A program made the translations under genes and the position numbers. Of a DNA stretch of 64,000 nt, positions 1,477 to 18,713 are shown one piece after another (the first letter of the stretch is position 1; every line of letters starts with the position of its first letter). Under the pieces are notes generated by a model that was given only the letters and a program-made list of their open reading frames with translations, made no database searches and was not told the origin of the DNA. Source of the stretch: Armatimonadota bacterium (GTDB taxonomy: Bacteria; Armatimonadota; Zipacnadia; Zipacnadales; UBA11051); NCBI GenBank assembly GCA_013178155.1, contig JABLXH010000040.1, positions 1 through 64,000 on the forward strand. Reading direction: 5' to 3'.

Positions 1477-3474
1477 TCAGAAAGACGTGGTCAATGCGAT
1501 CTCGTCGTTGACCTTGACGACCAGCAGACGGCCCTCACGACCGAACTCAACCCTGGCCTCCTCCTCCACCTCGACCTCGGCCGTCCCGAGCTGTTGGTCC
1601 CGAGCGCTGACGACCAGTGACACCTTCTTGGCTCCACTCGTAGTGCTAAGCGTCAACCGCAGTCCGGACTGCTCACCCAGTTCCGGGTCACCGGCCAGGA
1701 TGGCCGTCAGGCTGCCGGTCCTGGAGCCGACCTTGGGAACCGTGAACTTCAGCGCCGTGTTGCCGAAGTAGTCTCCCTTGGTCCACCAGACATTTTGCCC
1801 CTTGGCTGGCTGGACCCACGGGGCGCGGGTGCTGGCCCATTCCGCCATCTCGGGGTGCTCATCGGTCTCGGCAAACTCCTTCATCACGTGCGCGCCCCGC
1901 CGCAACGGGATGGGCTGCAGGTTGAGGTTGTCAAACATACCCTTGGCCTGGCCGTAGAGCCCGACACCCCCGCCGAAGATGCCGGGAACAACAGCCGAGA
2001 GTTCTGCTCCGTCGCCAAGGCGGCCCGTGACTACCTCGTTGCTGACAGTTGCCCGCAATCTTGCCTTCTTGACACCCGCCGGTGCGGGCTGCTGGGCCAG
2101 GACATTCTCGCCCTCGGCCCCCACCCGCAGGAGCTGGAGCTGACCGGCGAAGCTGCAGGCGGCCGAAGCGGGGGCCCAGCGCAACAGACAGTAGTCCTGT
2201 GGCCCCTGATGGGCGAACACCAGTCCGACGCCGCCGCCCAGGCTCTCGGCATCCACGCTGCACGCGTAGTCGCGCCACTGACCGTCCAGCAAAGCCTGCG
2301 AGGGCTTCGTGTCAGTGGTATAGAGCGCGCCGCTCTTCTGGACCCAGCCCTCACCCAGGGCCCATTTGCCCGGCACGACAGTCTCGAAGTCCTCTGCCAG
2401 CGCCTCCCATAGGTCACAGCCGACGTCGTCGAAGAACACCCCGTCTTTGCCCTCAACGTACAGGCCGACCTGTCCCTGACCAAAGAGAGGGGACCGAGCC
2501 ACCAGCCGCACCTCGCCGTCAACGAGACCCACGAACCGATCCTCGCAGACTTCTACCCGGAGCTTGTACCACTGCCCCGGCAGCAGTCCGCCGGGTTTGT
2601 CGGCCAACACCGTGGTCTGGCCGTTGCGGACGGCGATGAGCTGCACGCGATTGCTGTCCTGCCGGGCTGAGTGGCGACCCGTGGCCCGCAAAGCGAGGTA
2701 ATTGCTGTCGTCCTGATAGTAGAACACCAGTCCGGCAACCGCGTCGCCCTGGGGCTTGGCCGAAGCCTCGAGCGCGTACCGGTCCCAGAACCACTGCCCG
2801 GCGACACTGATGGCTACGGGCTCACCGGCGCCAACGTAGGAGAAGGCGTTGGCGGACTTGTCAGCCTCTTCGCGCGCTGCCTGCTCGTCGTCGCGGAGGG
2901 TCCGCATCTGCCAAACGCCGCACTGCGGCTCCCAGACACTCTCCGCGCCGGCTTCACGCACGAAGTCATCGTACACCACGATGTCGCCTACCGGCTGGAT
3001 CCGCAGGTCCTCCCATTCGGCGCCCTCGGCTGTGTAGCCTACCTGCCCGTCCCGCAAGCGGGCGTCGTATCCGCGCAGCAGGACGCTGTCGCCCCAGACC
3101 AGCGCCAGGCGCCAGTCGCGGCGCTGCAGCGTGAACGGAATGGCCTGCCCCGGCTGGAGCTTGATCGCCGCCGGGTTGCCGAGGGGTTGGACCTTTCCCC
3201 CGCTGACGAACACCAGCTTGGCTTCGGTGGGCCGGACAACCAGCAGATAGTGCTCCTGCGACTGGTCCTGCCAGTTGAACACAAGCCGCGCCTCGCACTT
3301 GGCGTCGGTGACTTTCAGGACCCCGGTGACGTTGAAGTCACCCTCACCCGGTTCCTCGAGAAACTGGATCGTGGCGGCTGGTGCCTTCCAGGGCAGAGCC
3401 AGCAGCGCGCCGCAGGCCACAGCGAGGGTCAGCCCGCTGTGCCGACACTTCCTTAAGAGATGGCTTTCCGCCAT
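1477..3474 (-). CDS. secreted LamG-like multi-domain protein
   Basis: Secreted protein of about 665 residues. I chose the ATG at 3474 because AGGA lies 8 nt upstream; in-frame starts up to 3501 are possible. A signal peptide (LTLAVACGALLALPWKAPA) opens the protein. Two tandem modules follow, each of the LamG / 3-keto-disaccharide-hydrolase-like sandwich type: one contains YDDFVREAG, the second EDFETVVPGKW, and both carry a GxVGLYV/GGVGLYGQ strand and a closing FFDDV or FDNLN strand. The C-terminal third is a further beta-rich domain. No catalytic residues can be assigned, so binding of a polysaccharide is the best guess from fold type. It lies between a CBM-like secreted protein and another secreted beta-sandwich protein. 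Confidence 0.72.
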   Translation of the reverse strand: MAESHLLRKCRHSGLTLAVACGALLALPWKAPAATIQFLEEPGEGDFNVTGVLKVTDAKCEARLVFNWQDQSQEHYLLVVRPTEAKLVFVSGGKVQPLGNPAAIKLQPGQAIPFTLQRRDWRLALVWGDSVLLRGYDARLRDGQVGYTAEGAEWEDLRIQPVGDIVVYDDFVREAGAESVWEPQCGVWQMRTLRDDEQAAREEADKSANAFSYVGAGEPVAISVAGQWFWDRYALEASAKPQGDAVAGLVFYYQDDSNYLALRATGRHSARQDSNRVQLIAVRNGQTTVLADKPGGLLPGQWYKLRVEVCEDRFVGLVDGEVRLVARSPLFGQGQVGLYVEGKDGVFFDDVGCDLWEALAEDFETVVPGKWALGEGWVQKSGALYTTDTKPSQALLDGQWRDYACSVDAESLGGGVGLVFAHQGPQDYCLLRWAPASAACSFAGQLQLLRVGAEGENVLAQQPAPAGVKKARLRATVSNEVVTGRLGDGAELSAVVPGIFGGGVGLYGQAKGMFDNLNLQPIPLRRGAHVMKEFAETDEHPEMAEWASTRAPWVQPAKGQNVWWTKGDYFGNTALKFTVPKVGSRTGSLTAILAGDPELGEQSGLRLTLSTTSGAKKVSLVVSARDQQLGTAEVEVEEEARVEFGREGRLLVVKVNDEIALTTSF

Positions 3475-3507
3475 GCCGTGCATCCTATCCATCGAAGCCA
3501 CGCGTCG

Positions 3508-4050
3508 CTATCTGATGATGTACTGTGGCGTCTGCTGCATGGCCCGCACCGGCACGTAGCGCGTGTCGTTGGTCAGCATGACCTGGTCCAGCTTCGCGCC
3601 GTCCTCCCGGTTTTGGATCGTGATGGAGTGTGTACCCGCGCCGAGCTGCAGCAGGGGACCCTTGACCCAGTGCCAGCGCTGGTAAGTGCCATCCTGGCCC
3701 AGGACCACGGCGGGCTTATCGTCAACCTTCAGGAAAAATGAGTTGCCGCAGCCGTCGTACCAGTGGCACAAGGCCCAGAACCGGTAGTTGCCAGCGGCCG
3801 GGACCTTGATCTTGTAGTAGGCCCGCCCCTGGTCGCCAGGGGCACCTTCCTCCTGTCCGTGCGGACGGCGCAGGGGAATCTCGATGTAGTAGCCGCCGGA
3901 GGCCACAGAGCTCTTCGTCTTGGTCATCGAGGCAGCGATGGCTGAGTAGCTCTCGGCCTCAAAGACAATCCTGACCGTGGCCGCGTAGGCCCAGGTGAGC
4001 AACAGGCCGGTGACCAGGGTCAGCAGTATCGGAACCACGAGGCGCTTCAT
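3508..4050 (-). CDS. secreted CBM6/CBM35-like carbohydrate-binding protein
   Basis: A 180-residue protein beginning at ATG 4050 with GGAGGAG 9 nt upstream. Residues 1-23 form a signal peptide ending in AYA/A. The mature part begins IVFEAESYSAI and continues with GGYYIEIPL, YYKIKVPAAGNYRFWALCHWYDGCGNSFFLKVD and LGAGTHSITIQNREDGAKLDQVMLTND. This is the usual CBM6/CBM35-like plan: an EAE start, a G-Y-Y strand, a P-x-G-x-Y-x-hydrophobic strand, and an ending D-x-hydrophobic-x-L-T/N-D. It is close to a bare single-module binding protein with no enzyme attached. It directly follows the O-antigen-ligase-like gene and precedes two larger secreted proteins, which suggests a surface glycan-binding role. 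Confidence 0.75.
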   Translation of the reverse strand: MKRLVVPILLTLVTGLLLTWAYAATVRIVFEAESYSAIAASMTKTKSSVASGGYYIEIPLRRPHGQEEGAPGDQGRAYYKIKVPAAGNYRFWALCHWYDGCGNSFFLKVDDKPAVVLGQDGTYQRWHWVKGPLLQLGAGTHSITIQNREDGAKLDQVMLTNDTRYVPVRAMQQTPQYIIR

Positions 4051-4054: not shown

Positions 4055-5362
4055 TCACACTCCTCCGGCTAAGGTCGGCGGCGTGGCGCTCTGCCGCTGA
4101 ATGCTGCCCATCACCGCGATCAGGGCGTATCCCAGGGCCCAGACGAGGGACGTGCCCCGCACAAACAGGCTGCTGAAAACGTTGACCAGGGGTACGGCCA
4201 GTGCCAGGCCGCAAAGCCCCGCTGCCCACACCCTCCCTTCCTGTGACTCCGTATGCCGCCAGAGGTTCACTGCCTGCCACGCAAAGTGCCCGATGAAGGC
4301 CATCAGGGCCACCAGGCCGGCGAAACCCATGCTGCTGCCGGTCACCAGGTAAAGGTTATTGGTGTCCGCCTCGGACTTCTTTACGTTCGGGAGAAACCCA
4401 TAGTACTCAGGACGTCCGATGTTGAGCTGGTAATTCCCTGTTCCTACCCCCAGCAGGAAATTCTCGGCCATCATGTTCAGCGCCGGGACCCATTCGATCC
4501 AGCGCTTCTTGACAATGGGTTGGCCGCTCTCGACAAACGCCTCGGCATCCATAAGCTTGTGAACCTCCCCCTCCTCATAGGGGTTCACCAGCTCCTGGTG
4601 GACTCCCCGATTCAGGGGCAAGCCCTGCGTCGTAAGCACGCAGAACAACGCGGCAGCCGGGAGGAACACCCACAGGCGGCCACTGGCACCACAGACCATA
4701 GTCATCACGGCCAGCACCACCACCAGCACGAACAGCAGGCCGGGTGACAGCAGCGTCACAGCGCCAAGTGTTAGTGCTCCGGCCGCCCACACCCGTTCCC
4801 AGGTCCGCCTGGACCATAGCAGCAGAGCATAGAACAGCGGCAGGACCATCACCAGGAAAGCGCTATAGGCCGTCCGGCTCTGGAAGCCGGCCTTCACGCC
4901 GGCGGGGTCCGTGGCCGTCACATACTGGCTCAAAGCGTAGAGCATGGCGGCGGACGTCCCGACCAGTAACACCAGCAAGGCCAGTCGCTGCCGACGCTCA
5001 CTCCGCAAGACGTCGGCAAACAGCATGTAGGCCAGGACGAAGTACAGCAGCAACTGAGCGATCTCCACGGCGGCCGCCTGAAGGTTCTCGGCCCCAAGGC
5101 CCGAGAGGACGGCAACGGCCAGCAGAACCCAGGTCTGGTGCGGCGGCCACAGCAGACCGCGGAGCCGCCCGGTTACCAGCGTCCACAGGCCCCAGGCCGC
5201 GATGATCGCGGCGGCCAGCAGATCGGCGTAGGCGATAAAGGGGCCGTGCTTGGGGTCCAGGGCGTAGGCCCATTGCCCGGGAGCCACAGCCAGAAGCGCC
5301 AGCACCGTCCAGAAGCTCCAGGTCGGCGTCTCCACTCGGGCCGATCTGCCCTCCTGGGTCAT
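4055..5362 (-). CDS. O-antigen ligase/polymerase-like membrane protein (Wzy_C type)
   Basis: A 435-residue multi-pass membrane protein with about ten hydrophobic segments. A large extracytoplasmic loop near residues 255-330 contains GVGTGNYQ, the pattern seen in the Wzy_C/WaaL O-antigen ligase superfamily, followed by NNLYL and a transmembrane run. Such proteins join or polymerise glycan chains at the outer face of the membrane using a polyprenyl-linked donor. The start codon overlaps the preceding stop by four bases (ATGA), and the stop sits within the ribosome-binding region of the CBM-like gene, so the three genes are probably translated together. Which glycan is used cannot be told from the sequence. 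Confidence 0.78.
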   Translation of the reverse strand: MTQEGRSARVETPTWSFWTVLALLAVAPGQWAYALDPKHGPFIAYADLLAAAIIAAWGLWTLVTGRLRGLLWPPHQTWVLLAVAVLSGLGAENLQAAAVEIAQLLLYFVLAYMLFADVLRSERRQRLALLVLLVGTSAAMLYALSQYVTATDPAGVKAGFQSRTAYSAFLVMVLPLFYALLLWSRRTWERVWAAGALTLGAVTLLSPGLLFVLVVVLAVMTMVCGASGRLWVFLPAAALFCVLTTQGLPLNRGVHQELVNPYEEGEVHKLMDAEAFVESGQPIVKKRWIEWVPALNMMAENFLLGVGTGNYQLNIGRPEYYGFLPNVKKSEADTNNLYLVTGSSMGFAGLVALMAFIGHFAWQAVNLWRHTESQEGRVWAAGLCGLALAVPLVNVFSSLFVRGTSLVWALGYALIAVMGSIQRQSATPPTLAGGV

Positions 5363-6072
5363 GCCGGTTCCCCCCCGCCGACCAGGTTACGGACCAGCGC
5401 CGCCAGTACGGTCAGCGCCAGGTACACCTGGGCCGAGTAACCCACGCCCGTGCGGCCCGATAAGCCCAGAACCACGCCAAGCAGCCAGGCGTACTGGACC
5501 GCATTGCTCACAAGCATCACCAGGTGCAGGCTGTCCATATCGTAGATGCGCCCCAAAGCCGCGTAGGTCCCCAGGCCCAGCACAATGACCAGTGCCGCGG
5601 CCAGGACCGTGACGCGTGCGTAAGGGATGGGGCACTGCTGGCCGCAGCGTCGCGTAACGGTTGCCAGGTACAGCATTCCGAAGACCCCGGCCACCAACAC
5701 CCCGATGGTAGCCAGGCTGGGGTTCACCGCCGCCAGCCATAGCGGCATCCTCTCCCCGACCGTCGGCCAGCTAGCTAGCTGTGGGTCATAGCTCAGGCTC
5801 AAAGCGACGCCTGCCAACAGGGCGGTCAGGCTCTTGCCGCAGACAGAGGCCGCGCCGCGGCCTCTGGTGCCCACAGCATGAGCTAGCGCTATCACGGCTG
5901 CGAGCAACAGCGCGGCCCACTGACGTCCGGTGAAATCAGCGGGCTGCAAGGTGTAGGCTGCGGAACAGCAGATCGCCAGCAGCCCCAGGTGGGTGAGGCC
6001 TGCGAGAACCCACACCGGTGCCTGCCGATGATGGGACAGCCGCTCATCTACCAGGCTCTCAGCACTGGCCAT
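5359..6072 (-). CDS. hypothetical membrane protein, about 7 TM
   Basis: A 237-residue protein with about seven hydrophobic segments and no recognised domain. It starts at ATG 6072 and is the first gene after a promoter-like sequence at 6168-6196. Its stop overlaps the start of the O-antigen-ligase-like gene, so the two probably act on the same glycan. It might be a partner or accessory membrane subunit for polymerisation, but nothing in the sequence proves this. Confidence 0.7.
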   Translation of the reverse strand: MASAESLVDERLSHHRQAPVWVLAGLTHLGLLAICCSAAYTLQPADFTGRQWAALLLAAVIALAHAVGTRGRGAASVCGKSLTALLAGVALSLSYDPQLASWPTVGERMPLWLAAVNPSLATIGVLVAGVFGMLYLATVTRRCGQQCPIPYARVTVLAAALVIVLGLGTYAALGRIYDMDSLHLVMLVSNAVQYAWLLGVVLGLSGRTGVGYSAQVYLALTVLAALVRNLVGGGEPA

Positions 6073-6218: not shown

Positions 6219-7385
6219 TTACGTCGCCAGTCCGCGCCCCCCATGAAGCTGCTCGTAGAGGGCAGCGTGTCCCGCGAGCATCTGATCCAGTCGGTACTGA
6301 CTGAGAACCAGCTCGCGTAACCGTTGGCCCATCGTCTCGCGTTCCGTGTTGAGCCACAGCTCGCTCATTCGGGCAGCGAGGTCCATAGGGTCGCCAGGCC
6401 GCGCCAGCAGGCCCGTTTCGCCGGGCGTGATGAGGTCGCGACAACCCGCGATGTCGGTCGCCACCACCGGCAGACTCGCCAGCCCAGCTTCCAGCAACGC
6501 ATACGGTAAGCCCTCCCAGAGGGAGGAGAGAACGAAGACATCCAGACCGGTCAGCAGCCGCGGGACGTCCTGGCGGTGTCCCAGGAAGCGGATGCTGTCA
6601 GCGCACCCCAGTCTCGCGGCCAGTTGCTGCAGTACCTTCCTCTGTGCCCCATCGCCCACGATGACGATACAGGCGTCCCGGAGCTGACGCTTCAGAATGG
6701 CCGCCGCTCGTACCAGACTGGCCACGTCTTTCTGGGGCACAAGTGCGGCTACGGTCCCAAAAACCGGGCTTTCGGGCGGCAAGTCCAACTCAGCGCGCAC
6801 TGCCTCGCGCTCGACTCCCGTGACCAGATCAGTCGGTCGGACCCCGTTGCGGATCAGGACTGCCCGTTCCGGTGGCACCACACGGTGCTCCAGGGCCAGC
6901 GCCAGTTGGCTGGGTCCGACCGCCACAAGCCGGTCCGTGTGGCGGCCCGCCCATCGCTCCAGTTCGAGGTAGACCCAGCGTCGGACCGAGCCGACGGTCA
7001 TCTGGAAGGGGAAGGCATGGGGGTTATAGACAGTTGCCGGCCGGGGCTGGACCTGGCGTGCCGCCAGCCGAGCCAGAAAGCCGCCCTTGGCGCTGTGGCC
7101 GTGAAGGATGTCCGGCCGGTCGCGCCGCAGGAGTTCAGACAGTGCCCACAGGGCGCCGAGGTCCGCTGGCGGGCTGATCTCGCGCCGCATAGGCAGCACA
7201 GTCACCCGGACGCCCCTCGCGCGAAGGCCTTCGATATCCGCCTGGAAGGCCGGTGTGCGCAAGGAGCAGATGAGGTGCTGCTCAAACCGCTCGGCCGGGA
7301 GTCCGAAGCACAGGTCAAGCACGTGACGGCGCGTACCGCCAACCGTGGCCTCCAGCACGTGAACGACGCGGATCCTAGCGCCCAA
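6219..7385 (-). CDS. GT4 family glycosyltransferase
   Basis: A GT-B fold glycosyltransferase, 388 residues from the proposed TTG at 7385. The protein begins GARIRVVHVLEATVGGTRRHVLDL, the usual N-terminal strand and glycine loop. The C-terminal half has the donor-binding E-x7-E motif (EGLPYALLE) followed by ASLPVVATDIAGCRDLI and ETGLL. Upstream in-frame starts as far as 7571 would add a low-complexity tail inside the neighbouring flippase gene and are rejected; no ATG is available. The gene overlaps the flippase stop by about 11 bp and closes the operon coming from 16.4 kb. It probably adds a sugar to the lipid-linked repeat unit in the cytoplasm. The start is less certain than the family. Confidence 0.82.
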   Translation of the reverse strand: MGARIRVVHVLEATVGGTRRHVLDLCFGLPAERFEQHLICSLRTPAFQADIEGLRARGVRVTVLPMRREISPPADLGALWALSELLRRDRPDILHGHSAKGGFLARLAARQVQPRPATVYNPHAFPFQMTVGSVRRWVYLELERWAGRHTDRLVAVGPSQLALALEHRVVPPERAVLIRNGVRPTDLVTGVEREAVRAELDLPPESPVFGTVAALVPQKDVASLVRAAAILKRQLRDACIVIVGDGAQRKVLQQLAARLGCADSIRFLGHRQDVPRLLTGLDVFVLSSLWEGLPYALLEAGLASLPVVATDIAGCRDLITPGETGLLARPGDPMDLAARMSELWLNTERETMGQRLRELVLSQYRLDQMLAGHAALYEQLHGGRGLAT

Positions 7386-9093
7386 GGCGCCCCCGCACCT
7401 TCCGGATGACGAAGCCGCCAACCATTGCCAACTCCTCGATCCTGGTGAGGGCGGCCACGACCAGAAACACGACACCTCCCCCAAGCCCGACCGCCCCGAA
7501 GAGCGCCAGGCTGCGCAGCTTCTGGGCCATGAAAGGCGGCGTCCAGCCGAGCAGAGGTGCCTCCAGCGCATTGCCGATGAAGTAGACGGTCAGCCCCATG
7601 GCCGCCGTGGCCAGCCCGAGCCGACCGGCGAAACTGAGAGCTTTGCCGTAATCTATGCGCCCGATCTGCCGCCGAATCAGTCCGTAGAGAACGACAACCT
7701 TGAGACTCTTGCTGACGGTCAGCGCCAGGGAAACGGCCGCCAGCGCCCCAGCTCCGCCAATCTGGCCGTTGCGATAGAGCACCATCACGCCCACATACCC
7801 GATCAGCACATGCAGCCCGGCCATGGCCGCTCCCCAGTAGTTGGGCGTCTTGGTATCCTGCAGAGCGAAGAACCACTTGTTGATGCTGCCCTCCAGAGCA
7901 AAGAACAACAGACCCGGGGCATAGCAAAACAGGGCCAGCGCCGACAGACCTGCCCGCTCCGGTGTCAGCTCGCCATGCTCAAACATGATGGTGATGATGG
8001 GCCGAGCCAGGAACATCAGCCCCACAGAGATCGGGACAAAGATGAAGGCCATGACCCTCGTCATACCGACCAGTGCATCGGCCAGACGGTCCTTCTCGCC
8101 CCGTGCGGCCCACTCGGACAGGAAAGGATAGACCACGAAGCTGACCGCCAAGGGGAGGATCTGCAGCGACGAGTCACCCATCTGCCGACCGAAGGTGAGA
8201 CAGGTATACATGCCCTCGCCAATCCGGTCGGCATAGATACTGTCAGCGACACTGCGCAGGGCGGAGGCGATCATGCCCACCAGCACCGGTGGCATGAGCG
8301 AGAAGACGGTGGCGGCGCCGGACACATCCCTGGGGTTCAGCAGAAAGCGGTAGTATCGAAACTTGCTCCACAGCCCTGGCACCATGGTGATCAGGCGCAT
8401 GGAGGCGCCAAGAACGACCCCCAGAGCAGCACCCAGTATGGCCCGCGGGTTGTCCGGACGCCAGATCCACAGCACCCCCACGACCATCCCGATGACCAGC
8501 ATTGTACGGAAGGCGAACTCACCGAATGCCGGCAGGGCGAAGCGCTTGTAGGCGTGCAAGGTCAACTCGGGCATCAGCGACAGGCTGAGAAACAATGTGG
8601 CCGGGGCCATCGTCCGCAACAGGAGCACGGCCGTGGCAAAGTTCTCCGGCTCTGACGCCAGGCGGCTCCAAAGCAGGCGAATGACCTGGGGAGCAAACAC
8701 CTCCAGCAGCGCCGTGATCGCCACCAGGAAGATCAACTCAAGGTTGAGAATGGCGCTCAGCAGGCGCCAGGCCTGCTGCTCTCCCCCGGCCCGCAACTCA
8801 CGGATGAACTGGGGCAGGTAGGCGGGCCGGAGGATCTTCTCCATGTTCGTGTACATGGCGTACACGATCACGTTGTACGCGCTGTTGTAAGCGTCAGCCT
8901 GGGCAATCCTTGCCCCCCCGAACCAGCCGGCGATCAGCATGCTCTTGGCATATCCCGAGATCTTCCCCAGGAACAGGAAGAAAGAGATGATGATGGCTCC
9001 AAGGGCCATGCGCTTACCGGCTTGCGCGTCGGCGGCCTCCTGGGCTTCGTTGGTCGGGGGATCTGGCGGCGGTCCAATGCTGATGTCGTCCAT
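7375..9093 (-). CDS. murJ: MurJ/MVF-family lipid-linked oligosaccharide flippase
   Basis: A 572-residue integral membrane protein with about 13-14 hydrophobic segments. The pattern GKISGYAKSMLIAGWFG near residue 43, then DAYNSAYN, FYPFLS-like VVYPFLSEWAARGE and PALFFALEGSINKWFFALQDTKTPNYWGA, is typical of the MurJ/MviN branch of the MOP exporter superfamily. MurJ flips lipid II; relatives inside polysaccharide operons flip the lipid-linked repeat unit. Here the gene sits among four glycosyltransferases and overlaps one of them, so it may be dedicated to the exopolysaccharide rather than peptidoglycan. A second murJ elsewhere in the genome would settle that. Confidence 0.82.
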   Translation of the reverse strand: MDDISIGPPPDPPTNEAQEAADAQAGKRMALGAIIISFFLFLGKISGYAKSMLIAGWFGGARIAQADAYNSAYNVIVYAMYTNMEKILRPAYLPQFIRELRAGGEQQAWRLLSAILNLELIFLVAITALLEVFAPQVIRLLWSRLASEPENFATAVLLLRTMAPATLFLSLSLMPELTLHAYKRFALPAFGEFAFRTMLVIGMVVGVLWIWRPDNPRAILGAALGVVLGASMRLITMVPGLWSKFRYYRFLLNPRDVSGAATVFSLMPPVLVGMIASALRSVADSIYADRIGEGMYTCLTFGRQMGDSSLQILPLAVSFVVYPFLSEWAARGEKDRLADALVGMTRVMAFIFVPISVGLMFLARPIITIMFEHGELTPERAGLSALALFCYAPGLLFFALEGSINKWFFALQDTKTPNYWGAAMAGLHVLIGYVGVMVLYRNGQIGGAGALAAVSLALTVSKSLKVVVLYGLIRRQIGRIDYGKALSFAGRLGLATAAMGLTVYFIGNALEAPLLGWTPPFMAQKLRSLALFGAVGLGGGVVFLVVAALTRIEELAMVGGFVIRKVRGRLGR

Positions 9094-9115: not shown

Positions 9116-10429
9116 CTAAGAAGACTCTATGCCCGCCGTGTGGCCATCTCCGGCTCGGCCGGGCCGTCGCGGCGGCTGCCAGTGGCGCAGCTCCAGACAT
9201 TGAGCGAATAGCGCTGCCAGCGCCGCAGTGTTGTCCCAGAGATCAAACTCCCGGGCCACCTTCTCTCGGGCATTGCGAATGAGACGGTCCCGCAGTTCTG
9301 CGTCGCCGATCGCCCTCTCGACGGCCTCTGCCAGTTCGTTGGGAGCGCCCGGCGCCACCAATAGCCCCGTCTCTTCGGCGATCACGGCTTCGGCGATGCC
9401 TGGCAAGTTGCTGGCCACCACGGGCACCCCGAAGGCCATCGCCTCCAGGATGACGTTTGGCAGGCCGTCACGATCGCCATCGGCGGCGACTACACTGGGC
9501 ACACACAGCACATCGGCCCGCCGATAGACGTGGGCGAGCTCATCCTGCCGCAAGGGACCCGCAAAGACCGTCCGCTGGCGCAATCCCAGGCCCCCTGCCA
9601 GTCGCTCCAACTCATCGCGCTGCGGACCGTCGCCCACGATGATAAGCTCGAACTGCAAGCCCCGTCCTGCCAGTATGGCGGCTGCCTGCAGCAGGAAAGG
9701 GAAGCCCTTCTTCTCCACCAGGCGACCGACGGCAAGGATGAGGGGCACCGGGTACTCGACCCGTGGCTGTCTGCCGAGCCGTTCCCAGTCCAGCCCGTGA
9801 TGGATCAAGCGCAACTTCTCGCCGCTTGTGAGTGAGTGATTCCGCTGCAATCGTTCCAGGCCGGTCCGGGTGCAGACGGCCACGAAGTCGGCCTCGCGCA
9901 GTTTCCGGGGGAGGAGAGCCGGTTCTCCGACCATGATGTCGCGGGCGTGGCAGGAGAAGCTCAGACCACTACCGCACAGCTCCGCCAGCATCAAGCCCAC
10001 CGTCGTGGGGTAGTTGGCAAAATGGCAATGGACGTGCCGCAGGGCGTGCCGCGGCAAGACGGAAGCGAAGTAGGAAGCCGCCAGGAGCGCTGACACCAGC
10101 TCCACCAGACAGCGCGGAAAGACCAGAGCGTGGCGTGCCACCAAAGCAAGCGCCGCGCAAAGACCCAGGGGGCGCTGGAGGGCCGTTCGTAGCAGCCCCA
10201 GCCAGGTGCGAGCCGAAAACGGGCGCGGGCGGTACAGCGTGCGTTCTGCCAGCCCGGAAGCCTCTGCATGCACCGGCTCCGTGGGGGCTGGCATCATGGA
10301 CAACGGCAGCAGCCGAAACCCCATCGCTTCCAGGGTCGTCATCTCGCGCAGGATGAAGGTCTCGGAAAGGGAAGGAAACTGCCCGAGAAGGTAGACGAGT
10401 GTGGGTACCGCTCGCTCACGTGGTCGCAC
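9116..10429 (-). CDS. GT4 family glycosyltransferase
   Basis: A 437-residue GT-B glycosyltransferase. The start is GTG 10429, which has GAGGAGG 6 nt upstream and overlaps the preceding gene by 14 bp; longer in-frame starts lack this. The N-terminus VYLLGQFPSLSETFILREM matches colanic-acid-type glycosyltransferases (WcaL/AmsK-like). HCHFANYPTTVGLM and SCHARDIMV follow. The donor site has GDRDGLPNVILEAMAFGVPVVASNLPGIAEAV, with Asp in place of the first Glu of E-x7-E. It belongs to the continuous operon from 16.4 to 6.2 kb and probably builds the same repeat unit. Confidence 0.85.
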   Translation of the reverse strand: MRPRERAVPTLVYLLGQFPSLSETFILREMTTLEAMGFRLLPLSMMPAPTEPVHAEASGLAERTLYRPRPFSARTWLGLLRTALQRPLGLCAALALVARHALVFPRCLVELVSALLAASYFASVLPRHALRHVHCHFANYPTTVGLMLAELCGSGLSFSCHARDIMVGEPALLPRKLREADFVAVCTRTGLERLQRNHSLTSGEKLRLIHHGLDWERLGRQPRVEYPVPLILAVGRLVEKKGFPFLLQAAAILAGRGLQFELIIVGDGPQRDELERLAGGLGLRQRTVFAGPLRQDELAHVYRRADVLCVPSVVAADGDRDGLPNVILEAMAFGVPVVASNLPGIAEAVIAEETGLLVAPGAPNELAEAVERAIGDAELRDRLIRNAREKVAREFDLWDNTAALAALFAQCLELRHWQPPRRPGRAGDGHTAGIESS

Positions 10430-11531
10430 TGGCAGCCTCCTCGTACAAGGCCACGACCTGCCGGGCATGCTCCTGCCAGCTGAAACGCCCTGCGTGCTGC
10501 CGGCCACGTTCGGACAGCTCCGCCAGGCGCCCGGGGTTGGTGAGGAGCTCCTTCAGGGCTTCCGCCAACTGCGCTGGCGGACCCAGTGGCACCACCAGCG
10601 ACGCCGGGCCTGCAATCTCGGGCAAGGCGCCAGCATCGGAGACGACTGTCGGCGTACCGCAGGCCATGGCCTCCAGCGGTGGCAGCCCCATGCCCTCAAA
10701 CCTGGACCACAGGACAAGCACCTCGGCGGCTGTGTAAAGCGCAGGCAAGTCTTCGCCGGCCACGTATCCCAGTTGGTGGATGCGGTCCGCGTGTCGGGCC
10801 CTGGTCACCGCCCGTTCGATGGCCCCAAAGCCCCAGGCAGGACGCCCCGCCAGGACCAGATGGTGCGGCAGCTCGTCCGCCAGCTCATCAAAGGCGGCAA
10901 TGACGGCCGGGAGGTTCTTCTTGGGCTCGAGATTGCCCACGTGGAGAATGAAGCGCGCAGGAAGCCCAAGCTGCTCGCGAACGTGCGCCACCTCGCGATG
11001 ACTTGCCGGGGCCAGATGGCTCGCAATCCCCAGGGGAACGACCCGCAGCCGCTCTGCGACCTCCGGAAAGCGCTTCCGGACCTGCCGGGCGACGGCCTCT
11101 GACGGCACGATGACCCGCGAGGCCCGGCGCACGCTCGCCGGCAGTAGACGCGCATAGTGCCACACGTTGGTTCGTCGGCAATACTGGGGGAACTCCAGCG
11201 CAATCAGGTCATAGACCGTCAGGAGGGAAGGTCCGCGCCAGTTCCAGGGCAGGACGTAAGCCGGTCCGTGCAGGAGGTCACAACGTGTTCGCAGGGTCTC
11301 GGCCAGCAGCGTCTGAGTGTAGGCGATGCGGGTTGCTCGACAGCATACCCAGGCCGGAGCCACGAGTAACGGCATTGTCATCTGGCAGCTATTGGCATAG
11401 CGGCGCTGGCAGACCAGAAAGTAGGAGTGTTGGGGCGCTGCCGCCGGCAGGGCCTCTGCCAGAGACTCGACGGCGTGCTCGACCCCACTGTGGGGGCCAC
11501 CCAGCAGCAATCCATCCACAGCCACTCTCAT
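10416..11531 (-). CDS. GT4 family glycosyltransferase (mannosyltransferase-like)
   Basis: A GT-B glycosyltransferase of 371 residues, started at ATG 11531 because this overlaps the previous stop as ATGA. It begins MRVAVDGLLLGGPHSGVEHAV, the acceptor-side glycine loop seen in GT4 mannosyltransferases. HVGNLEPKKNLPAVIAAFDEL and the donor motif EGMGLPPLEAMACGTPTVVSDAGALPEI are clear. It is translationally coupled to the upstream GT4 gene, and its end overlaps the downstream one. Confidence 0.86.
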   Translation of the reverse strand: MRVAVDGLLLGGPHSGVEHAVESLAEALPAAAPQHSYFLVCQRRYANSCQMTMPLLVAPAWVCCRATRIAYTQTLLAETLRTRCDLLHGPAYVLPWNWRGPSLLTVYDLIALEFPQYCRRTNVWHYARLLPASVRRASRVIVPSEAVARQVRKRFPEVAERLRVVPLGIASHLAPASHREVAHVREQLGLPARFILHVGNLEPKKNLPAVIAAFDELADELPHHLVLAGRPAWGFGAIERAVTRARHADRIHQLGYVAGEDLPALYTAAEVLVLWSRFEGMGLPPLEAMACGTPTVVSDAGALPEIAGPASLVVPLGPPAQLAEALKELLTNPGRLAELSERGRQHAGRFSWQEHARQVVALYEEAASATT

Positions 11532-12724
11532 GCCGACCACCGCCAGGCCCTGGTGGCACGTTCCCGCAGCAGTTGCCGGTAGAGCTCGACCGTCAGTTCG
11601 GCGGTGTCGCGGGCCAGGAACTTCCGGACGCGGCGCAACCCGCCGGTGCGCAGCCGCTCCGCCAGTTCCGAGTCGCTGAGCACGCGGCGCGTGGCCTGAA
11701 ACAGGGCATCGGCATCACCCGGGGGGACCAGCAGCCCGCTCTGGCCCTGCTCGATGATCTCGGCGGGACCTGCAGCGTCTGCCGCAACGACCGGTGTGCC
11801 CAGAGCCAACGCCTCCAGGATCACCCGCCCGAAGGGTTCCTCAGTGGCCGGGTGAACTACAACATCCAGCGCGGCAACGATATCGGCGATGTCCTGGCGA
11901 TGGCCCGCCCAGATGACGCGATCGGAGATACCCAGGTGCACCGCAAGCCGGCGCAGATCCTCGGCATAGCGGGCGTTCGCCCCGTGCAGGTCGCCCCCCA
12001 CGATGACCAGACGCACATCCGGCAGATGAGCAATGAGCCGTGCTCCAGCCCGCAGAAAGAGGTCCTGGCGCTTCCAGGGGACGAGTTGTGCCACACAGCC
12101 GGCGAGGGGCACACCCGGGGGTAGACGCCAGTCTCGCCTGACCGCCTCCCGAGGTCGCGTCACCACCACGTCCTGCCGCGTGATGCCATTGTGGACCATC
12201 GTCAGCTTGCCGGCCGCCTCGGGCGCTACCTGCAACACATGGTCGGCCGCGGCCCGCGACACCGCGATGATGAGCGCAGCCGCCTCCGCCGCTTGCGCCA
12301 CCGCGCCTCCGGGAGCCCGCAGGTCGCGGGCATGCCATACCACCGGGAGAGCTCGCGCCAACGGCCGCGCCGCCAGCATGCCCACCAGGCTGTTGCAATG
12401 CACGAGGCTTGCTTCGGCGCGCTGGGCAAGAACCCTCAGTCGGCGACTGGCGCGCGCCAGACTCCAGCCCTGAGCCAGCAGCGAGAGCGGGTTGCAGGTC
12501 CTGTGAAGCGGCTGCAGGGGGATGGGCAGCACCGGCACGTCGAGGGCTGCTGCGGGCTCTTCAAGGGCGGGACCGCGGGGGACCGCCAACACCGGCCGTA
12601 CCCACTGGCGGTTCAGGCTTTCCAGCAGCCGCAGCAGACTCTTTTCGGCCCCACCGACGAGGTTGATGTGATTGACGTACAGGACCGTGATTGGGCCGCC
12701 CCCGCCACGTTCAGATGGTCGCAT
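11528..12724 (-). CDS. GT4 family glycosyltransferase
   Basis: A GT-B glycosyltransferase of about 398 residues from ATG 12724; a GTG at 12739 is the alternative. It begins with VLYVNHINLVGGAEKSLLRLLESL, the glycine loop of GT4 enzymes, and has HARDLRAPGG, VAQLVPWKRQDLFLRAG and the E-x7-E donor motif EPFGRVILEALALGTPVVAADAAGPAEII. The start overlaps the end of the adjacent hydrolase gene and its stop overlaps the next GT4 start, so all are probably made from one transcript. Confidence 0.85.
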   Translation of the reverse strand: MRPSERGGGGPITVLYVNHINLVGGAEKSLLRLLESLNRQWVRPVLAVPRGPALEEPAAALDVPVLPIPLQPLHRTCNPLSLLAQGWSLARASRRLRVLAQRAEASLVHCNSLVGMLAARPLARALPVVWHARDLRAPGGAVAQAAEAAALIIAVSRAAADHVLQVAPEAAGKLTMVHNGITRQDVVVTRPREAVRRDWRLPPGVPLAGCVAQLVPWKRQDLFLRAGARLIAHLPDVRLVIVGGDLHGANARYAEDLRRLAVHLGISDRVIWAGHRQDIADIVAALDVVVHPATEEPFGRVILEALALGTPVVAADAAGPAEIIEQGQSGLLVPPGDADALFQATRRVLSDSELAERLRTGGLRRVRKFLARDTAELTVELYRQLLRERATRAWRWSA

Positions 12725-13577
12725 GGCCGGCAGTCTCACTGAGGGCCTGGGTTCGCAGCCATGTCAGACTGGTGTCTATGACCTCATCCTCCCACGCCAA
12801 GGAGTAGAAGGCATGGTTGGCACCCTCCACCACGTGCACGACGAAAGGCTGGCCCACCTCCTCGCACAGCTCCCGGTAGTGCGCCACGCAGCCCGGCGTC
12901 GTCGGGTCGTTGCCCCCATAGATGAACAGCCTCGGCCCGCGGAAGCCGGCGAAGCAGGCCAGCCAGTCAATGGCTCGATCGCTCTCGCTGCCCCCCTCTC
13001 CGGCGCCACGCCCACCACCCCGGATCACTTTGATGATCTGGTCCGCCTGTAGCCGCCCCTGGACCAGTTTCGCCCAGGTGTCCCGCTGGAGCACCTTGCG
13101 TCCGTAAGCCCCCAGCATGCTGCGGCGCTTGGCTCGGTCAGTTCGCTCCCGGTTGCCGGCCACGATCGGGGCCGACCAGAGCACTTGCGCCGCTATCGCA
13201 GGATGCAACGGCCCGGCGCCGATGGCCACCTCGCTACCCGAGCAATCGCCCACCAGCGCCACACTCGTAGCCCCGGTCTCTTTCAGCACATACTCGGTGG
13301 CCGCCACCGCATCCTCGATCATGGTGGTGAGCGTCGTATCGGTGGTTGCCCCCTCGGAGTCACCCCTCCCGCGGAAGTCAAAGCGGAGGCTGATGAAGCC
13401 CTGGGCTTCGGCGCGACGCGCCATCTTGGTGAACATCTGATGGGGGCCGATCCGGTAGCCGGCCCAGCCGTGCAGGTAGACCAGGGCCAGGGGTAATCGC
13501 GCTGCGGCGTCATCCGGCTCGTGGATGGCGCTGAGCAGGCGGTGCCCGGCAACCTCGAAGTAACCGTGTCGTTCCAT
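12711..13577 (-). CDS. alpha/beta hydrolase, exosortase-A-associated hydrolase 1-like
   Basis: A 288-residue alpha/beta hydrolase. It has the oxyanion region LVYLHGWAG, the strand RFDFRGRGDSEG, the nucleophile elbow G-D-C-S-G and a C-terminal GANHAFYS histidine. Cysteine stands where serine is usual. Cys in this elbow together with an adjacent second hydrolase and an acyl carrier protein matches, from memory of the families, the TIGR03100 (hydrolase 1), TIGR03101 (hydrolase 2) and acyl carrier set found next to exosortase A. It may be a thioesterase or acyltransferase acting on the carrier protein's acyl group. No exosortase is visible in the window. The substrate is unknown. Confidence 0.75.
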   Translation of the reverse strand: MERHGYFEVAGHRLLSAIHEPDDAAARLPLALVYLHGWAGYRIGPHQMFTKMARRAEAQGFISLRFDFRGRGDSEGATTDTTLTTMIEDAVAATEYVLKETGATSVALVGDCSGSEVAIGAGPLHPAIAAQVLWSAPIVAGNRERTDRAKRRSMLGAYGRKVLQRDTWAKLVQGRLQADQIIKVIRGGGRGAGEGGSESDRAIDWLACFAGFRGPRLFIYGGNDPTTPGCVAHYRELCEEVGQPFVVHVVEGANHAFYSLAWEDEVIDTSLTWLRTQALSETAGHATI

Positions 13578-13603
13578 GGCAGAAGAGGGTGCTACCCGGG
13601 CCT

Positions 13604-14440
13604 TCAGTCGGCGGGTCGCCCGGCAATCCGGGCCGCCTGCTGTTCGGCCAGCCAGATCTCCGTAGTCTCCAGCAGGGCCTGGGGCCGCACCAGGCCGATG
13701 CGATTCCAGAACGGCTCCTGACGAACCGCGGCAACGCTCCCACCCAGAGCCCGCGCCAACTGCTGACAGTCGTCGTTGGGCTGATCGCGACTGGTGATGT
13801 TGACCACCAGCGATGGTCCGGGAAAAGGGGTGACGTCCTGCTCGAGGTCCAATGCTTCGATCTGGCTGCGTGTCTCGGCCGAGACGCGATACCCATCGAA
13901 GTCAAATACGTCCTCGGCGTGGGCCTGACGCACCTGCCGGGCGTCGAACTCCTGACCCCGCGTCAGCATGGCCTTCACCAGCGAGCGACGCAGGTTGTGT
14001 CCCAGGTACTGCTTGCCGTTGATGACGGGCTCCCAGAGCACCAGCAGGTTAACGCTCCCTGAGTCCCGGGCCGCCTGAACCGCCAGGGCCCCCCCCAGCC
14101 GCAGGCCCAGCAACCCCACTACCTCCAGCTGCAGGGTCTCGCGGGCGTAATCCAACGCCGCGCAGATGTCCTGAACCCACTGCTCAGGGGTGGCGTCCAA
14201 AAACTCTCCGGGACTGTCGCCGGTGCCGCGGTAATCAAAGCGCAGGCAACTGATCCCGGCCGCGCAGAAGGCTCGCGCGGCCTCCACCATCACGCGGTGG
14301 GCACACTTCTTCTCCTCCGCGAAGGGGTCGCAGAAGACCAGACCCCAGGCGGGAGCGGTCACCTCGCAGCAGCCATGGAGGACCCCGTGCAAGGGCACCC
14401 TACCCGGGATGGTCACGGCACTCTCGTGACCGTGCCACAT
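13604..14440 (-). CDS. alpha/beta hydrolase-like protein, exosortase-A-associated hydrolase 2-like
   Basis: A 278-residue alpha/beta-hydrolase fold protein. The core GLVFCDPFAEEKKCAHRVMVEAARAF and CLRFDYRGTGDSPGEF is followed by the elbow G-L-R-L-G, in which arginine replaces the nucleophile serine. That replacement is characteristic, as I recall it, of the TIGR03101 exosortase-A hydrolase 2 family, so the protein is probably not a standard serine hydrolase. It lies 5 bp after the acyl carrier protein gene and 26 bp before the hydrolase-1-like gene. The most likely job is modification or transfer of an acyl group during exopolysaccharide or surface-protein maturation. Confidence 0.76.
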   Translation of the reverse strand: MWHGHESAVTIPGRVPLHGVLHGCCEVTAPAWGLVFCDPFAEEKKCAHRVMVEAARAFCAAGISCLRFDYRGTGDSPGEFLDATPEQWVQDICAALDYARETLQLEVVGLLGLRLGGALAVQAARDSGSVNLLVLWEPVINGKQYLGHNLRRSLVKAMLTRGQEFDARQVRQAHAEDVFDFDGYRVSAETRSQIEALDLEQDVTPFPGPSLVVNITSRDQPNDDCQQLARALGGSVAAVRQEPFWNRIGLVRPQALLETTEIWLAEQQAARIAGRPAD

Positions 14441-14445
14441 GAGCG

Positions 14446-14703
14446 CTAGCCTCGCTTGGCCGCAACGAACGCCGCGATGTTCTCGACGGTTGCGAAGGTT
14501 TCCAGACAGAAGTCGGTGTCTTCCAGCGACAGGCCGAACTCCTCCTCCAGCCCCACCACGATCTCAAACAGATTGACGGAGTCCAGGCCGTACACCTTCA
14601 TCAGGTCGGCGTCATCGGCGATTGTCGTCGGCTCTATGTCGAGAAACAGGCGCTCCACGATCATGCTCTTGAGTTGGCTCTTCAGCGCACAGTCAGTGGC
14701 CAT
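14446..14703 (-). CDS. acyl carrier protein
   Basis: An 85-residue acidic four-helix acyl carrier protein. The phosphopantetheine attachment serine is in YGLDSVNLFEIVVGLEEEFG. The start ATG 14703 has GGAGG 5 nt upstream. It is not next to fatty acid synthesis genes; instead it precedes two unusual alpha/beta hydrolases inside a glycan operon. A dedicated carrier for an acyl group on a surface glycan or on a membrane-bound intermediate is the simplest reading. Confidence 0.85.
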   Translation of the reverse strand: MATDCALKSQLKSMIVERLFLDIEPTTIADDADLMKVYGLDSVNLFEIVVGLEEEFGLSLEDTDFCLETFATVENIAAFVAAKRG

Positions 14704-14748: not shown

Positions 14749-15609
14749 TCATAGCACAGGGGGAACACCCGTCTCCGACAGCGGCTTTGTGGGCAGCTTG
14801 CGCCAATGGCATTCCGTGTCTGGAGGCCCCCCCTCGGTCGCAAAGGCCTGCGCCCACCTGCGTTTGAAGATCCCCCAGTTGCGCATCGTCACGTAGGTAA
14901 ACCTCACGTCCGGTGAGCCGGCAGTAGTCACGTTCTCGAAATGATACAGTTCGGCTGCCGGTTCGTAAAGAACCTGCCAGCCTGCGGCGCGGGCCCGGTA
15001 GCACAGATCGAAGTCCTCAAACTGCGCCGGGTTGAACGTCTCGTCCAGCCCCCCGACCTGTTCGTAGACCTCGCGGCGCATCAGCCAGGCTGCGCTGATC
15101 AGACACTGCACCTCCACCGGCTCGTTCCATCGTGGATCGTCATGGGCCTCGCCTCGGCCACGGTACTGCACCCGCCCCGTGGGCGAAATGGCTGCTCCGG
15201 CACACTCGATGTCATAGGGCGGGAAGGGAAACAGCAGTTTCGGCCCCACGATCCCCGCCCGGGGTGAGTGGTCCAGTGTGGCGTGCAGCGTTCCCAGCCA
15301 GTCGCGGCGACGCACGGCGGTGTCGTTGTCCAGGAAGCCGATGCGCTGGCCTGTCGCCACCTCCAGGGCCTGGTTACGGGCGGTGCAGGCCCCCAGGTTG
15401 CGTTCATTGGCAATGATCCTCAGACGAACCCCGGCCCGGCGGAACTCCTCGCTCAGCAGGCCGCGCAGGCTCTCCAGACTACCGTCGGTCGAACCGTTGT
15501 CCACGACGAAGACCTCATCGGCGCGCGGCAGGCACTGCAACTGACCGCGCAAGCATAGCTCGGTGTAAGGGCGCTTGTTGTAGCTGACAACGATCAGCGA
15601 GGTGGTCAA
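14749..15609 (-). CDS. GT2 family glycosyltransferase
   Basis: A 286-residue GT-A glycosyltransferase. It starts TTSLIVVSYNKRPYTELCL and has FVVDNGSTDGSLE, LGACTARNQAL and the metal-binding FLDNDTAVRRRDWL; the acceptor region has FDLCYRARAAGW. The start is a TTG at 15609 with GAGG 6 nt upstream; no ATG is available there. It lies between the HEAT-repeat gene and the acyl carrier protein gene. Similar enzymes add rhamnose or other hexoses to lipid-linked chains, but the donor cannot be told. Confidence 0.83.
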   Translation of the reverse strand: MTTSLIVVSYNKRPYTELCLRGQLQCLPRADEVFVVDNGSTDGSLESLRGLLSEEFRRAGVRLRIIANERNLGACTARNQALEVATGQRIGFLDNDTAVRRRDWLGTLHATLDHSPRAGIVGPKLLFPFPPYDIECAGAAISPTGRVQYRGRGEAHDDPRWNEPVEVQCLISAAWLMRREVYEQVGGLDETFNPAQFEDFDLCYRARAAGWQVLYEPAAELYHFENVTTAGSPDVRFTYVTMRNWGIFKRRWAQAFATEGGPPDTECHWRKLPTKPLSETGVPPVL

Positions 15610-15626: not shown

Positions 15627-16415
15627 TTACGAGGGGGGTGGCGCCACAATCTGGGCGGGCGGCAGATCAGGCAACGGCGGCAGGTCGGGAGCATCGGAGG
15701 CCATGGGGCCGACCTCAGCCAGCTCGCCAATCGAAGGCAGGTCCGGCATCCCGGCCACTGGTTGACTGCGGTAGGGTTCCACGACGGTAGTAGCCAGTAG
15801 GTCACGCACCGCGGCCCGCGCTGCCCCCCGGCTCTCGTCCGTTGAGCCGACGCTGGCTGGCTCAGGAGTGGCGGCTCCCGCCGGCGGCGCTGGTCTCTTC
15901 GGCCGCCTCGGCCGGTCTTCAGCGCGCGCACGCGACGGCGTCTGCCTTGCGGCTGGCGGCGGCTTCGGTGGCGTGGTCACAGGGGCTGGCGGCGGAGGCG
16001 GAGGCATCGGCGGGACGGGTGGCGGCGATGGCGAAACAGGCCGCAGCACCGGCTGTGGCGATGTTGCGGCGCGTGTCGGCGGCGGAGTATACCGGCTGCC
16101 AAGGCGTTGCTCTATCTCGGTGATGGCCTCGCGCGCCTCTTTTTGCAGGTCAGCCCGACCGTGGGCCAGGAATGGCATCAGCGCGGGGATCGCGGTGAAG
16201 TCGCCGATCTCACCCAGCCGTCGAATCACGTTCCATTTGGCGTTATCCGGAGTTCGCGGCAGCGCTTGCAGCAGCATCTCCTGCTCCACCCCACCATCTG
16301 GCTCGTCCTTCACACCCATGTCCGGCCTGAGACCCTCGGGCACCGCGCCCCTCAGACTGTCCTTGAAGGCCTGGATGATCATGCTGCGCAGTTGGTCGCG
16401 GTCTCGCTGGTCCAT
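15627..16415 (-). CDS. HEAT-repeat protein with long proline-rich tail
   Basis: A 262-residue protein from ATG 16415, preceded by an AGGAAGGGG ribosome-binding site. Residues 45-100 form a HEAT-like pair of helices (VIRRLGEIGDFTAIPALMPFLAHG). The next 90 residues are low complexity, almost all Pro, Ala, Thr and Arg, including a run of six prolines; the final 60 residues include a short Pro-Asp-Leu-Pro repeat. No membrane segment or signal peptide is seen. It is the first gene of the glycan operon and may be a scaffold or regulator, but no function is recognised. A longer frame to 16838 would run into the divergent gene and is rejected. Confidence 0.72.
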   Translation of the reverse strand: MDQRDRDQLRSMIIQAFKDSLRGAVPEGLRPDMGVKDEPDGGVEQEMLLQALPRTPDNAKWNVIRRLGEIGDFTAIPALMPFLAHGRADLQKEAREAITEIEQRLGSRYTPPPTRAATSPQPVLRPVSPSPPPVPPMPPPPPPAPVTTPPKPPPAARQTPSRARAEDRPRRPKRPAPPAGAATPEPASVGSTDESRGAARAAVRDLLATTVVEPYRSQPVAGMPDLPSIGELAEVGPMASDAPDLPPLPDLPPAQIVAPPPS

Positions 16416-16493
16416 CTGCCCCTTCCTCACGACCCCCGCCCCCCTCGGCAGGGAGGCTTTGGGCGTCAGACACCGAGAGACGGTGCTTGACAC

Positions 16494-16521
16494 AGTATAG
16501 CACGCTCGTTTGGCGATGCAA
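16494..16521 (-). promoter_or_regulatory. promoter for the 16.4-6.2 kb glycan operon
   Basis: On the minus strand TTGCAT (16521-16516), a 16-nt spacer and TATACT (16499-16494) resemble a sigma-70 promoter. The start point would be about 16487, giving a leader of about 70 nt before ATG 16415. No other promoter-like sequence was noticed before 6219, so one transcript may cover ten genes. Confidence 0.55.
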
Positions 16522-16592
16522 GGCGGCAGGTGCCATCGTTGCCGGGCGGGAACAGGGCGGGTACCGGCTGTATCCCTATCGCGGAGGCCAAC

Positions 16593-17315
16593 GTGCGCCC
16601 GCTTATCGTCATTCTCTGCAATATCTGGCGAGCCGACGCCGGCGAGTTCTCCAGTCGCGACACCATCAACCGCCCCTACACCGAGGCCGTCTACGCGGCC
16701 GGCGGCCTGCCCGTGGGCCTGCCCTGCCTGGACGACGAGACCGCCGTGCGTGAGATGCTGGGCCGGGCCGACGGTCTGCTCATCACCGGCGGCGAGGACG
16801 TGTCGCCTGACATCTTCGGCCAGGCCCCCCACCCGCAACTGGGCAGTGTGGCGCCCTGGCGCGACACCCTTGACCGCCTCGCCATTGGCTACGCCTTGCA
16901 GCGCCCGGAGCTGCCCGTGCTGGGCATTTGCCGGGGCATTCAGTCTCTGGCGGTCTTCGCCGGCGGTACGCTGATCCAGGATGTGCCGTCACAGGTTCCC
17001 AACGCCATCCAGCACAGTCAGAAGGCACCTGGCTACCACGGTATTCACGAGGTGAGTATCGAGCCGGGGTCGCTGCTGGCTGACATCATCGGCGACACCA
17101 GGGCCATGACAAACAGCTTCCACCACCAGGCGGTGGCGGACATCCCGCCGGGCTTTCGTGCCATCGCCTGGTCAGTGGACGGGGTGATCGAGGCCATGGT
17201 GCGCGACGGGGTCCGTTTCTGCCTCGGCGTGCAGTTCCATCCGGAGCTGATGGTCAACCACAGCCCGGCCATGGCGGCCATCTTCTCACGCTTCGTCGAG
17301 GCGGCAGCCACCTGA
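16593..17315 (+). CDS. gamma-glutamyl-GABA hydrolase family (peptidase C26)
   Basis: A 240-residue class I glutamine amidotransferase-like hydrolase. The catalytic Cys113 is in GICRGIQ, and His216 and Glu218 in VQFHPE complete the triad. RADGLLITGGEDVSP and HHQAV are also typical of the PuuD/C26 family, which cleaves gamma-glutamyl bonds in compounds such as gamma-glutamyl-GABA. The GTG at 16593 is chosen because GGAGG lies 5 nt upstream; longer starts are inferior. It stands alone on the plus strand, divergent from the glycan operon and with no polyamine genes next to it, so the true substrate is uncertain. Confidence 0.87.
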   Translation: MRPLIVILCNIWRADAGEFSSRDTINRPYTEAVYAAGGLPVGLPCLDDETAVREMLGRADGLLITGGEDVSPDIFGQAPHPQLGSVAPWRDTLDRLAIGYALQRPELPVLGICRGIQSLAVFAGGTLIQDVPSQVPNAIQHSQKAPGYHGIHEVSIEPGSLLADIIGDTRAMTNSFHHQAVADIPPGFRAIAWSVDGVIEAMVRDGVRFCLGVQFHPELMVNHSPAMAAIFSRFVEAAAT

Positions 17316-18523: not shown

Positions 18524-18597
18524 GTTATGCTCCGTCCGTTGCGCCCGTTGCCCCCGGGCGGTTAACGACTGTGCTCTCCCACAGAAACGACATGCCC

Positions 18598-18634
18598 AAA
18601 CAAAACGGACCGCGTCATCCCACTGACCGGTCCG
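18598..18634 (-). terminator. intrinsic terminator of tRNA-Glu
   Basis: On the minus strand, an 11-bp stem with a single bulged G (CGGACCGGTCA and TGACGCGGTCCG around a GTGGGA loop) is followed by TTTTGTTT. It lies about 80 nt past the CCA end of the tRNA and separates it from the transglycosylase gene. Confidence 0.7.
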
Positions 18635-18713
18635 CGACCAAAAGCCCGTCCTGCGCGCAACCCAGGCGAAGGCCCTCAAGGACACGCGGAGCGGTGCAAT
18701 AGTGAGCTTGGTT

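Follow-up and report, generated by a model that had tools for sequence, protein, structure and literature searches.

The 64,000-nucleotide stretch analysed here (the window) represents positions 1 to 64,000 of contig JABLXH010000040.1 (C147) in the 5.53 Mb, 95.6% complete genome of an Armatimonadota bacterium. On its minus strand lie three closely packed genes encoding an acyl carrier protein (ACP) and two proteins of the alpha/beta-hydrolase fold, HYD2 and HYD1, with gaps of 5 bp between ACP and HYD2 and 26 bp between HYD2 and HYD1. On the strength of sequence and gene context we tentatively suggest, with a confidence somewhat short of even, that these genes act within a surface-polysaccharide operon of the Wzx/Wzy type as a carrier-linked module for acyl transfer, in which an acyl group would be moved from ACP to a surface glycan. 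The conserved unit is the two-protein module of HYD2 and HYD1. The sequence-only reading of this DNA had taken the genes for a reduced or diverged exosortase-A system because of their unusual nucleophile elbows and the adjoining ACP; the elbows are real, but the exosortase frame is not right.

The exosortase A system-associated hydrolases 1 and 2 (families TIGR03100 and TIGR03101) so far have names only, and our literature search found no paper assigning a function to them. The window pair is a variant of this known hydrolase pair without assigned function. Being separable from exosortases, composed of a Cys enzyme and an Arg-elbow pseudoenzyme, and accompanied by carriers and glycan genes, it makes a testable question of whether a carrier-bound acyl group is moved to a sugar.

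The hydrolase pair and the adjoining carrier protein

Among NCBIfam families, HYD1 is best matched by TIGR03100 (hydr1_PEP; 94.4 bits, E 6.9e-27, cut-off 168.45) and second best by TIGR03101 (E 5.6e-11), while HYD2 is best matched by TIGR03101 (hydr2_PEP; 119.9 bits, cut-off 202.75). By the curated rule neither protein is a member, and a profile search of the window's own genome gave no TIGR03100 match over the cut-off. The family identity suggested earlier therefore stands as regards the best NCBIfam families and the adjoining carrier-protein gene, but not as membership, since both scores are far under the cut-offs. The HYD1 and HYD2 genes are adjacent in the window and in nearly all relatives, like the TIGR03100/TIGR03101 pair; a search of HYD1 against plasmids gave no match. 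The ACP is closest to the cispentacin ACP AmcB (59.8 bits, cut-off 80), and the phosphopantetheine serine site DSV is present in the ACP of the window and of its relatives.

The G-L-R-L-G elbow of HYD2 and the G-D-C-S-G elbow of HYD1, next to the ACP, had been read exactly right from the letters, with R and C at the nucleophile positions. The conservation of these two residues goes far beyond chance. In HYD1, 25/25 Armatimonadota sequences, the window included, have the Cys of G-D-C-S-G together with the D-P Asp and the N-H His. In HYD2, 28/28 sequences of this phylum retain the Arg of G-x-R-x-(G/A), whereas the positions of Asp and His are variable. Eleven further pairs from Bacteroidota and Proteobacteria all retain both the HYD1 Cys and the HYD2 Arg, and over the three phyla Cys and His of HYD1 are present in 36/36 sequences and Asp in 35/36 (the exception being Variovorax). 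Because the triad is conserved in HYD1, and in HYD2 the Arg is kept but not the Asp and His, HYD1 has the appearance of an active Cys-His-Asp enzyme, and HYD2 that of a pseudoenzyme.

The AlphaFold models are of high confidence (pLDDT 87.5 for HYD1 and 91.6 for HYD2) and place Cys112 and Arg114 in the strand–helix turn of an alpha/beta hydrolase; among solved structures they most resemble esterases and lipases. A midpoint-rooted tree separates a HYD1 clade from a HYD2 clade; since each of them holds Armatimonadota, Bacteroidota and Proteobacteria groups, the tree suggests an old pair. HYD2 and HYD1 are fused into one gene in several lineages (L051, L053–L055, L062, L066 and the Azospirillum, Burkholderia and Cupriavidus loci).

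Gene neighbourhoods and probable supply of the acyl group

The operon runs on the minus strand, head to tail down to position 4055, in the order GT2, ACP, HYD2, HYD1, GT4a, GT4b, GT4c, MurJ-like flippase, GT4d, a 237-aa protein and a Wzy-like protein, the HYD1 open reading frame (ORF) overlapping that of GT4a. Beside ACP and the hydrolase pair it therefore contains five glycosyltransferases (GT), a flippase and a Wzy-like protein, and profile matches together with gene layout bear out the earlier description of the operon. Past the Wzy-like gene, two or three more genes are kept within the same family.

The named relatives are mostly metagenome genomes of WS1 / Candidatus Zipacnadia. Since many named loci stand on contigs that also belong to numbered genomes, the loci compared are not all independent. 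The usual core is ACP-HYD2-HYD1-GT4a-GT4b-GT4c-MurJ-GT4d, and almost every Armatimonadota locus with unfused hydrolase genes has an ACP orthologue directly before HYD2. Many relatives carry a gene for the beta subunit of a 2-oxoacid dehydrogenase E1 before GT2 (PRK09212; over the cut-off in the three scanned). In fewer of them it is joined by E1-alpha (TIGR03182, under the cut-off), a ketosynthase (KS) that also matches the cispentacin KS subunit AmcF, a chain length factor (CLF)-like protein and a short-chain dehydrogenase/reductase (SDR). In many relatives the acyl group is probably made by this neighbouring set, of which most have E1-beta, fewer also E1-alpha, KS/CLF and SDR, and genome G127 a lipoyl protein as well. 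The Armatimonadota loci offer a possible and unusual supply route composed of E1, KS/CLF and a short lipoyl protein; a literature search on E1 and ACP transfer found nothing directly usable.

The comparison with G127, which belongs to the same family (L038, L120, contig C85), concerns the window directly. Both flanks are shared: GT2 (14749–15609) on one side, and on the other a C26 peptidase (16530–17315, 57% identity) and an SLT protein (17390–18793, 46%). Between them G127 has E1-beta, a 280-aa protein, E1-alpha, CLF/KS, SDR and a 164-aa protein with lipoyl and E3-binding domains and no acyltransferase domain match, while in the window the same interval holds a HEAT-like gene only (15627–16838). 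In the window genome, which is incomplete, no E1-beta or KS orthologues were found elsewhere; they seem absent because its E1-beta paralogues are only 48–49% identical to that of G127, against 61–75% among cluster members, and its KS matches reach only 39–40%. Since E1-beta holds this place in the other genome of the same family (L039) and across the order, the window lineage has probably lost the supply operon, loss being the simplest reading. Its ACP would then need another source of acyl groups, or would carry a different one. Directly upstream of ACP, G127 encodes a glycyl radical protein of 750 aa that resembles pyruvate formate lyase (PF02901, PF01228; L038:10517–12769).

Outside Armatimonadota, GT4a, GT4b, MurJ, GT4c and GT4d accompany the pair also in Bacteroidales (L109) and Rikenellaceae (L115). 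In four Bacteroidota loci (L109, L110, L114, L115) the gene of an ABC transporter precedes the pair; the transporter has about 570 aa and is MsbA-like in L109, the one scanned. No ACP was found within the sequence examined at these four loci. In Variovorax, a nonribosomal peptide synthetase (NRPS), a phosphopantetheinyl transferase, HYD2, HYD1 and exopolysaccharide (EPS) export genes stand together, and in Burkholderia and Cupriavidus the fused pair lies inside Wzc-type EPS loci. On Azospirillum plasmids (L125, L127) one apparent operon comprises ACP, acyl-CoA dehydrogenase, amino acid:[acyl-carrier-protein] ligase, DUF1839, a glycoside hydrolase of family 2 (GH2) and, as the last gene, the fused HYD2-HYD1. 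Ligases of this type load amino acids onto carrier proteins (PMC9437257).

Proposed function and its alternatives

According to the acyl-transfer reading, ACP would carry the acyl group as a phosphopantetheine thioester, as its intact DSV site suggests. HYD1 would accept it on Cys112, the residue we expect to be acylated by means of the conserved Cys-His-Asp triad, and would then acylate a hydroxyl or amine on the growing lipid-linked oligosaccharide, ahead of its flipping by the MurJ-like protein. HYD2 may be a non-catalytic partner with an invariant Arg at the dead nucleophile site, binding HYD1 and perhaps ACP or its phosphopantetheine; we suppose this role because the Arg is invariant and HYD2-HYD1 fusions exist. 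The reading as a whole draws on the conserved residues of both proteins, the fusions, the ACP placed before HYD2, the carrier and glycan genes beside the pair in other lineages, and the upstream KS/CLF and E1 genes of relatives. The earlier proposal that the system acylates a glycan or sorts a protein survives in its first half, since glycan acylation fits the context, while its exosortase framing does not.

Three known systems resemble parts of this module. The acyltransferase active site of the polyhydroxyalkanoate synthase PhaC combines an alpha/beta-hydrolase fold, a G-x-C-x-G elbow and a Cys-His-Asp triad acting on acyl thioesters (PMC5509742), and so sets a precedent for a transfer of acyl groups that starts from a thioester; PhaC differs in that it takes CoA thioesters, polymerises and works without an Arg-elbow partner, and the PhaC family was not among the NCBIfam/Pfam scan matches of the window proteins. 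The Azospirillum operons share the HYD2-HYD1 order, the Arg and Cys elbows and an ACP in the operon, but their pair is fused, their carrier is charged by a ligase resembling aminoacyl-tRNA synthetases (aaRS), GH2 replaces the GT/flippase set, and HYD2 identity is about 31–39%. The type II set of cispentacin is similar in its ACP (AmcB, the best match of the window ACP) and in its KS (AmcF, matched by the KS of the relatives); it differs because the window ACP is under the AmcB cut-off, E1-alpha/beta and glycan genes are associated with the pair, and the window is without KS/CLF.

Several points weigh against the acyl-transfer reading. The acyl donor, the acyl acceptor and the physical interaction within the module are predictions, serine esterases are the closest folds to the pair, and plain hydrolases such as dienelactone hydrolase can also use a Cys nucleophile. 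With the supply genes absent from the window genome, its ACP may be idle or used differently. No ACP was recognised near the fused genes of L053–L055, L062 and L066, nor was one found in 5/6 Bacteroidota loci within the sequence stretch examined. The fused pair of L054 adjoins Rieske and amidohydrolase genes rather than glycan genes, and the full GT/flippase set occurs in only 2/6 Bacteroidota loci. The fused pair of L053 lies near an AMP-binding ligase and an SDR.

The main rival explanation is that HYD1 and HYD2 constitute a two-subunit thioesterase whose only tie to the glycan genes is co-regulation. It would cleave completed acyl chains off ACP, yielding a free acid or lactone, or act as an editing enzyme on mis-primed ACP. 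The intact triad and esterase-like fold of HYD1 would suit such an enzyme, as would an ACP that adjoins the pair with no acceptor enzyme recognised, and the KS/CLF/E1 synthesis genes of the relatives would require an off-loading enzyme. However, the pair remains beside GT4a, GT4b and flippase genes across phyla, the Burkholderia and Cupriavidus EPS loci hold it with no synthase or carrier recognised, and an acyltransferase with Cys where Ser would be usual is known in PhaC. We consider the thioesterase unlikely, though a serious competitor. It is improbable that HYD1 is a glycan esterase or deacylase trimming the polysaccharide and unconnected to ACP: feruloyl esterases and lipases are its closest solved folds and sequences, but its place in the operon after ACP, its conserved pseudoenzyme partner and the carrier-linked contexts in Azospirillum and Variovorax speak against it.

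The relation to exosortases was analysed in 151 Armatimonadota genomes, in which HYD1 matches split into full-length ones of at least 209 bits, present in 34 genomes, and partial ones of at most 125 bits. Exosortases occur in 27/34 genomes with full-length HYD1 and in 93/117 others (odds ratio 0.995, p = 1, genomes being taken as independent and all exosortase types pooled). Because HYD1 and exosortases are distributed independently across the phylum, we rejected the link between them. Complete ACP-HYD2-HYD1 loci are also present in genomes in which no exosortase was found, e.g., G038 (98% complete). None of the 151 genomes has a TIGR03098 ligase over the cut-off of 592 or a TIGR03099 decarboxylase over that of 478.

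The statement that exosortase is missing is correct for the window but not for the genome, where the search revealed three PF09721 exosortases, all outside the ACP-HYD locus (loci L058–L060), and five PEP-CTERM sites over the cut-off. One exosortase, on contig C171, exceeds the XrtA cut-off (211.3 vs 208), and genes for an EpsI-like protein and a sugar transferase lie beside it; the other two are on contig C135, one of them with PEP-CTERM sites nearby. A standard exosortase locus elsewhere with its own hydrolase copies had been envisaged as well; no HYD1 or HYD2 copies occur at the exosortase loci of this genome. The hydrolases of XrtA systems presumably possess the same Cys and Arg elbows.

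Like the TIGR03100/TIGR03101 hydrolases, the window pair is encoded by adjoining genes among polysaccharide genes that include one for a TIGR03088-like GT; it differs from them in having no exosortase tie in the phylum, no TIGR03098/TIGR03099 partners and, in relatives, the KS/CLF/E1 supply set. It is very improbable that the module represents an accessory set of exosortase-A type, reduced or split off, which acts in trans for the XrtA locus of the genome and aids the sorting or anchoring of PEP-CTERM proteins: its best families are the exosortase A system-associated hydrolases 1 and 2, GT4d matches TIGR03088, and XrtA and PEP-CTERM proteins are encoded in the genome, but the hydrolase scores, the independent distribution over the 151 genomes, the exosortase-free G038 and the lack of both partner families over their cut-offs all contradict it. 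Possibly, the hydrolases of the exosortase-A systems are one piece of a broader machine that does not depend on exosortase, in which an Arg-elbow pseudohydrolase and a Cys-elbow hydrolase move acyl or aminoacyl groups from diverse carriers (type II KS/CLF with E1 dehydrogenase, aaRS-like ligase, NRPS) onto surface glycans in at least three phyla; we advance this generalisation with caution.

Genes of the operon and its surroundings

The features of the operon and the adjoining HEAT-like gene are collected in Table 1.

Table 1. Predicted genes of the ACP-HYD2-HYD1 operon and its upstream flank (window positions)
Feature	Position	Strand	Support
ACP, acyl carrier protein, 85 aa; phosphopantetheine serine Ser42 in G-L-D-S-V	14446..14703	-	PF00550 42.7 bits
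HYD2, apparent alpha/beta-hydrolase-fold pseudoenzyme; Arg114 at nucleophile position (codon 14099-14101), PFAEEKK in oxyanion-loop region	13604..14440	-	TIGR03101 119.9 bits; AF2 pLDDT 91.6
HYD1, alpha/beta hydrolase; putative Cys nucleophile Cys112 (codon 13242-13244), conserved Asp224 and His255	12711..13577	-	TIGR03100 94.4 bits; AF2 pLDDT 87.5
GT2 glycosyltransferase, conserved neighbour upstream of ACP	14749..15609	-	PF00535 73.3 bits; syntenic in most relatives
GT4a glycosyltransferase, true start probably within ORF	11528..12739	-	PF00534 126.7 bits; directly downstream of HYD1, conserved
GT4b glycosyltransferase	10416..11540	-	GT4-family NCBIfam matches; synteny
GT4c glycosyltransferase, EpsE-like	9116..10507	-	171.8 bits, cut-off 400; synteny
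MurJ/Wzx-like flippase	7375..9093	-	TIGR01695 188.5 bits, cut-off 235.55; synteny
GT4d glycosyltransferase	6219..7571	-	best match TIGR03088 170.5 bits, cut-off 409; synteny
Conserved 237-aa operon protein	5359..6072	-	no Pfam match; relatives in L039, L042, L045
O-antigen ligase/polymerase-like (Wzy_C) membrane protein	4055..5362	-	PF04932 30.9 bits, just under gathering 31.7; syntenic
180-aa protein at operon end	3508..4050	-	59-61% identity in same-family genomes G127, G049; no Pfam match
674-aa protein at operon end	1477..3501	-	43-47% identity in same-family genomes G127, G049; no Pfam match
HEAT-like repeat gene (by eye; no Pfam match), at the site of the G127 acyl-supply operon	15627..16838	-	

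A second group of glycan genes lies at 23147–26704 of the window, where two GT2-like genes flank an ABC-2 permease and its ATPase (24178–25784). In addition, a tRNA-Glu (ctc) at 18714–18788 overlaps the called start of the SLT transglycosylase ORF (17390–18793), and therefore the true start of this ORF should be further downstream.

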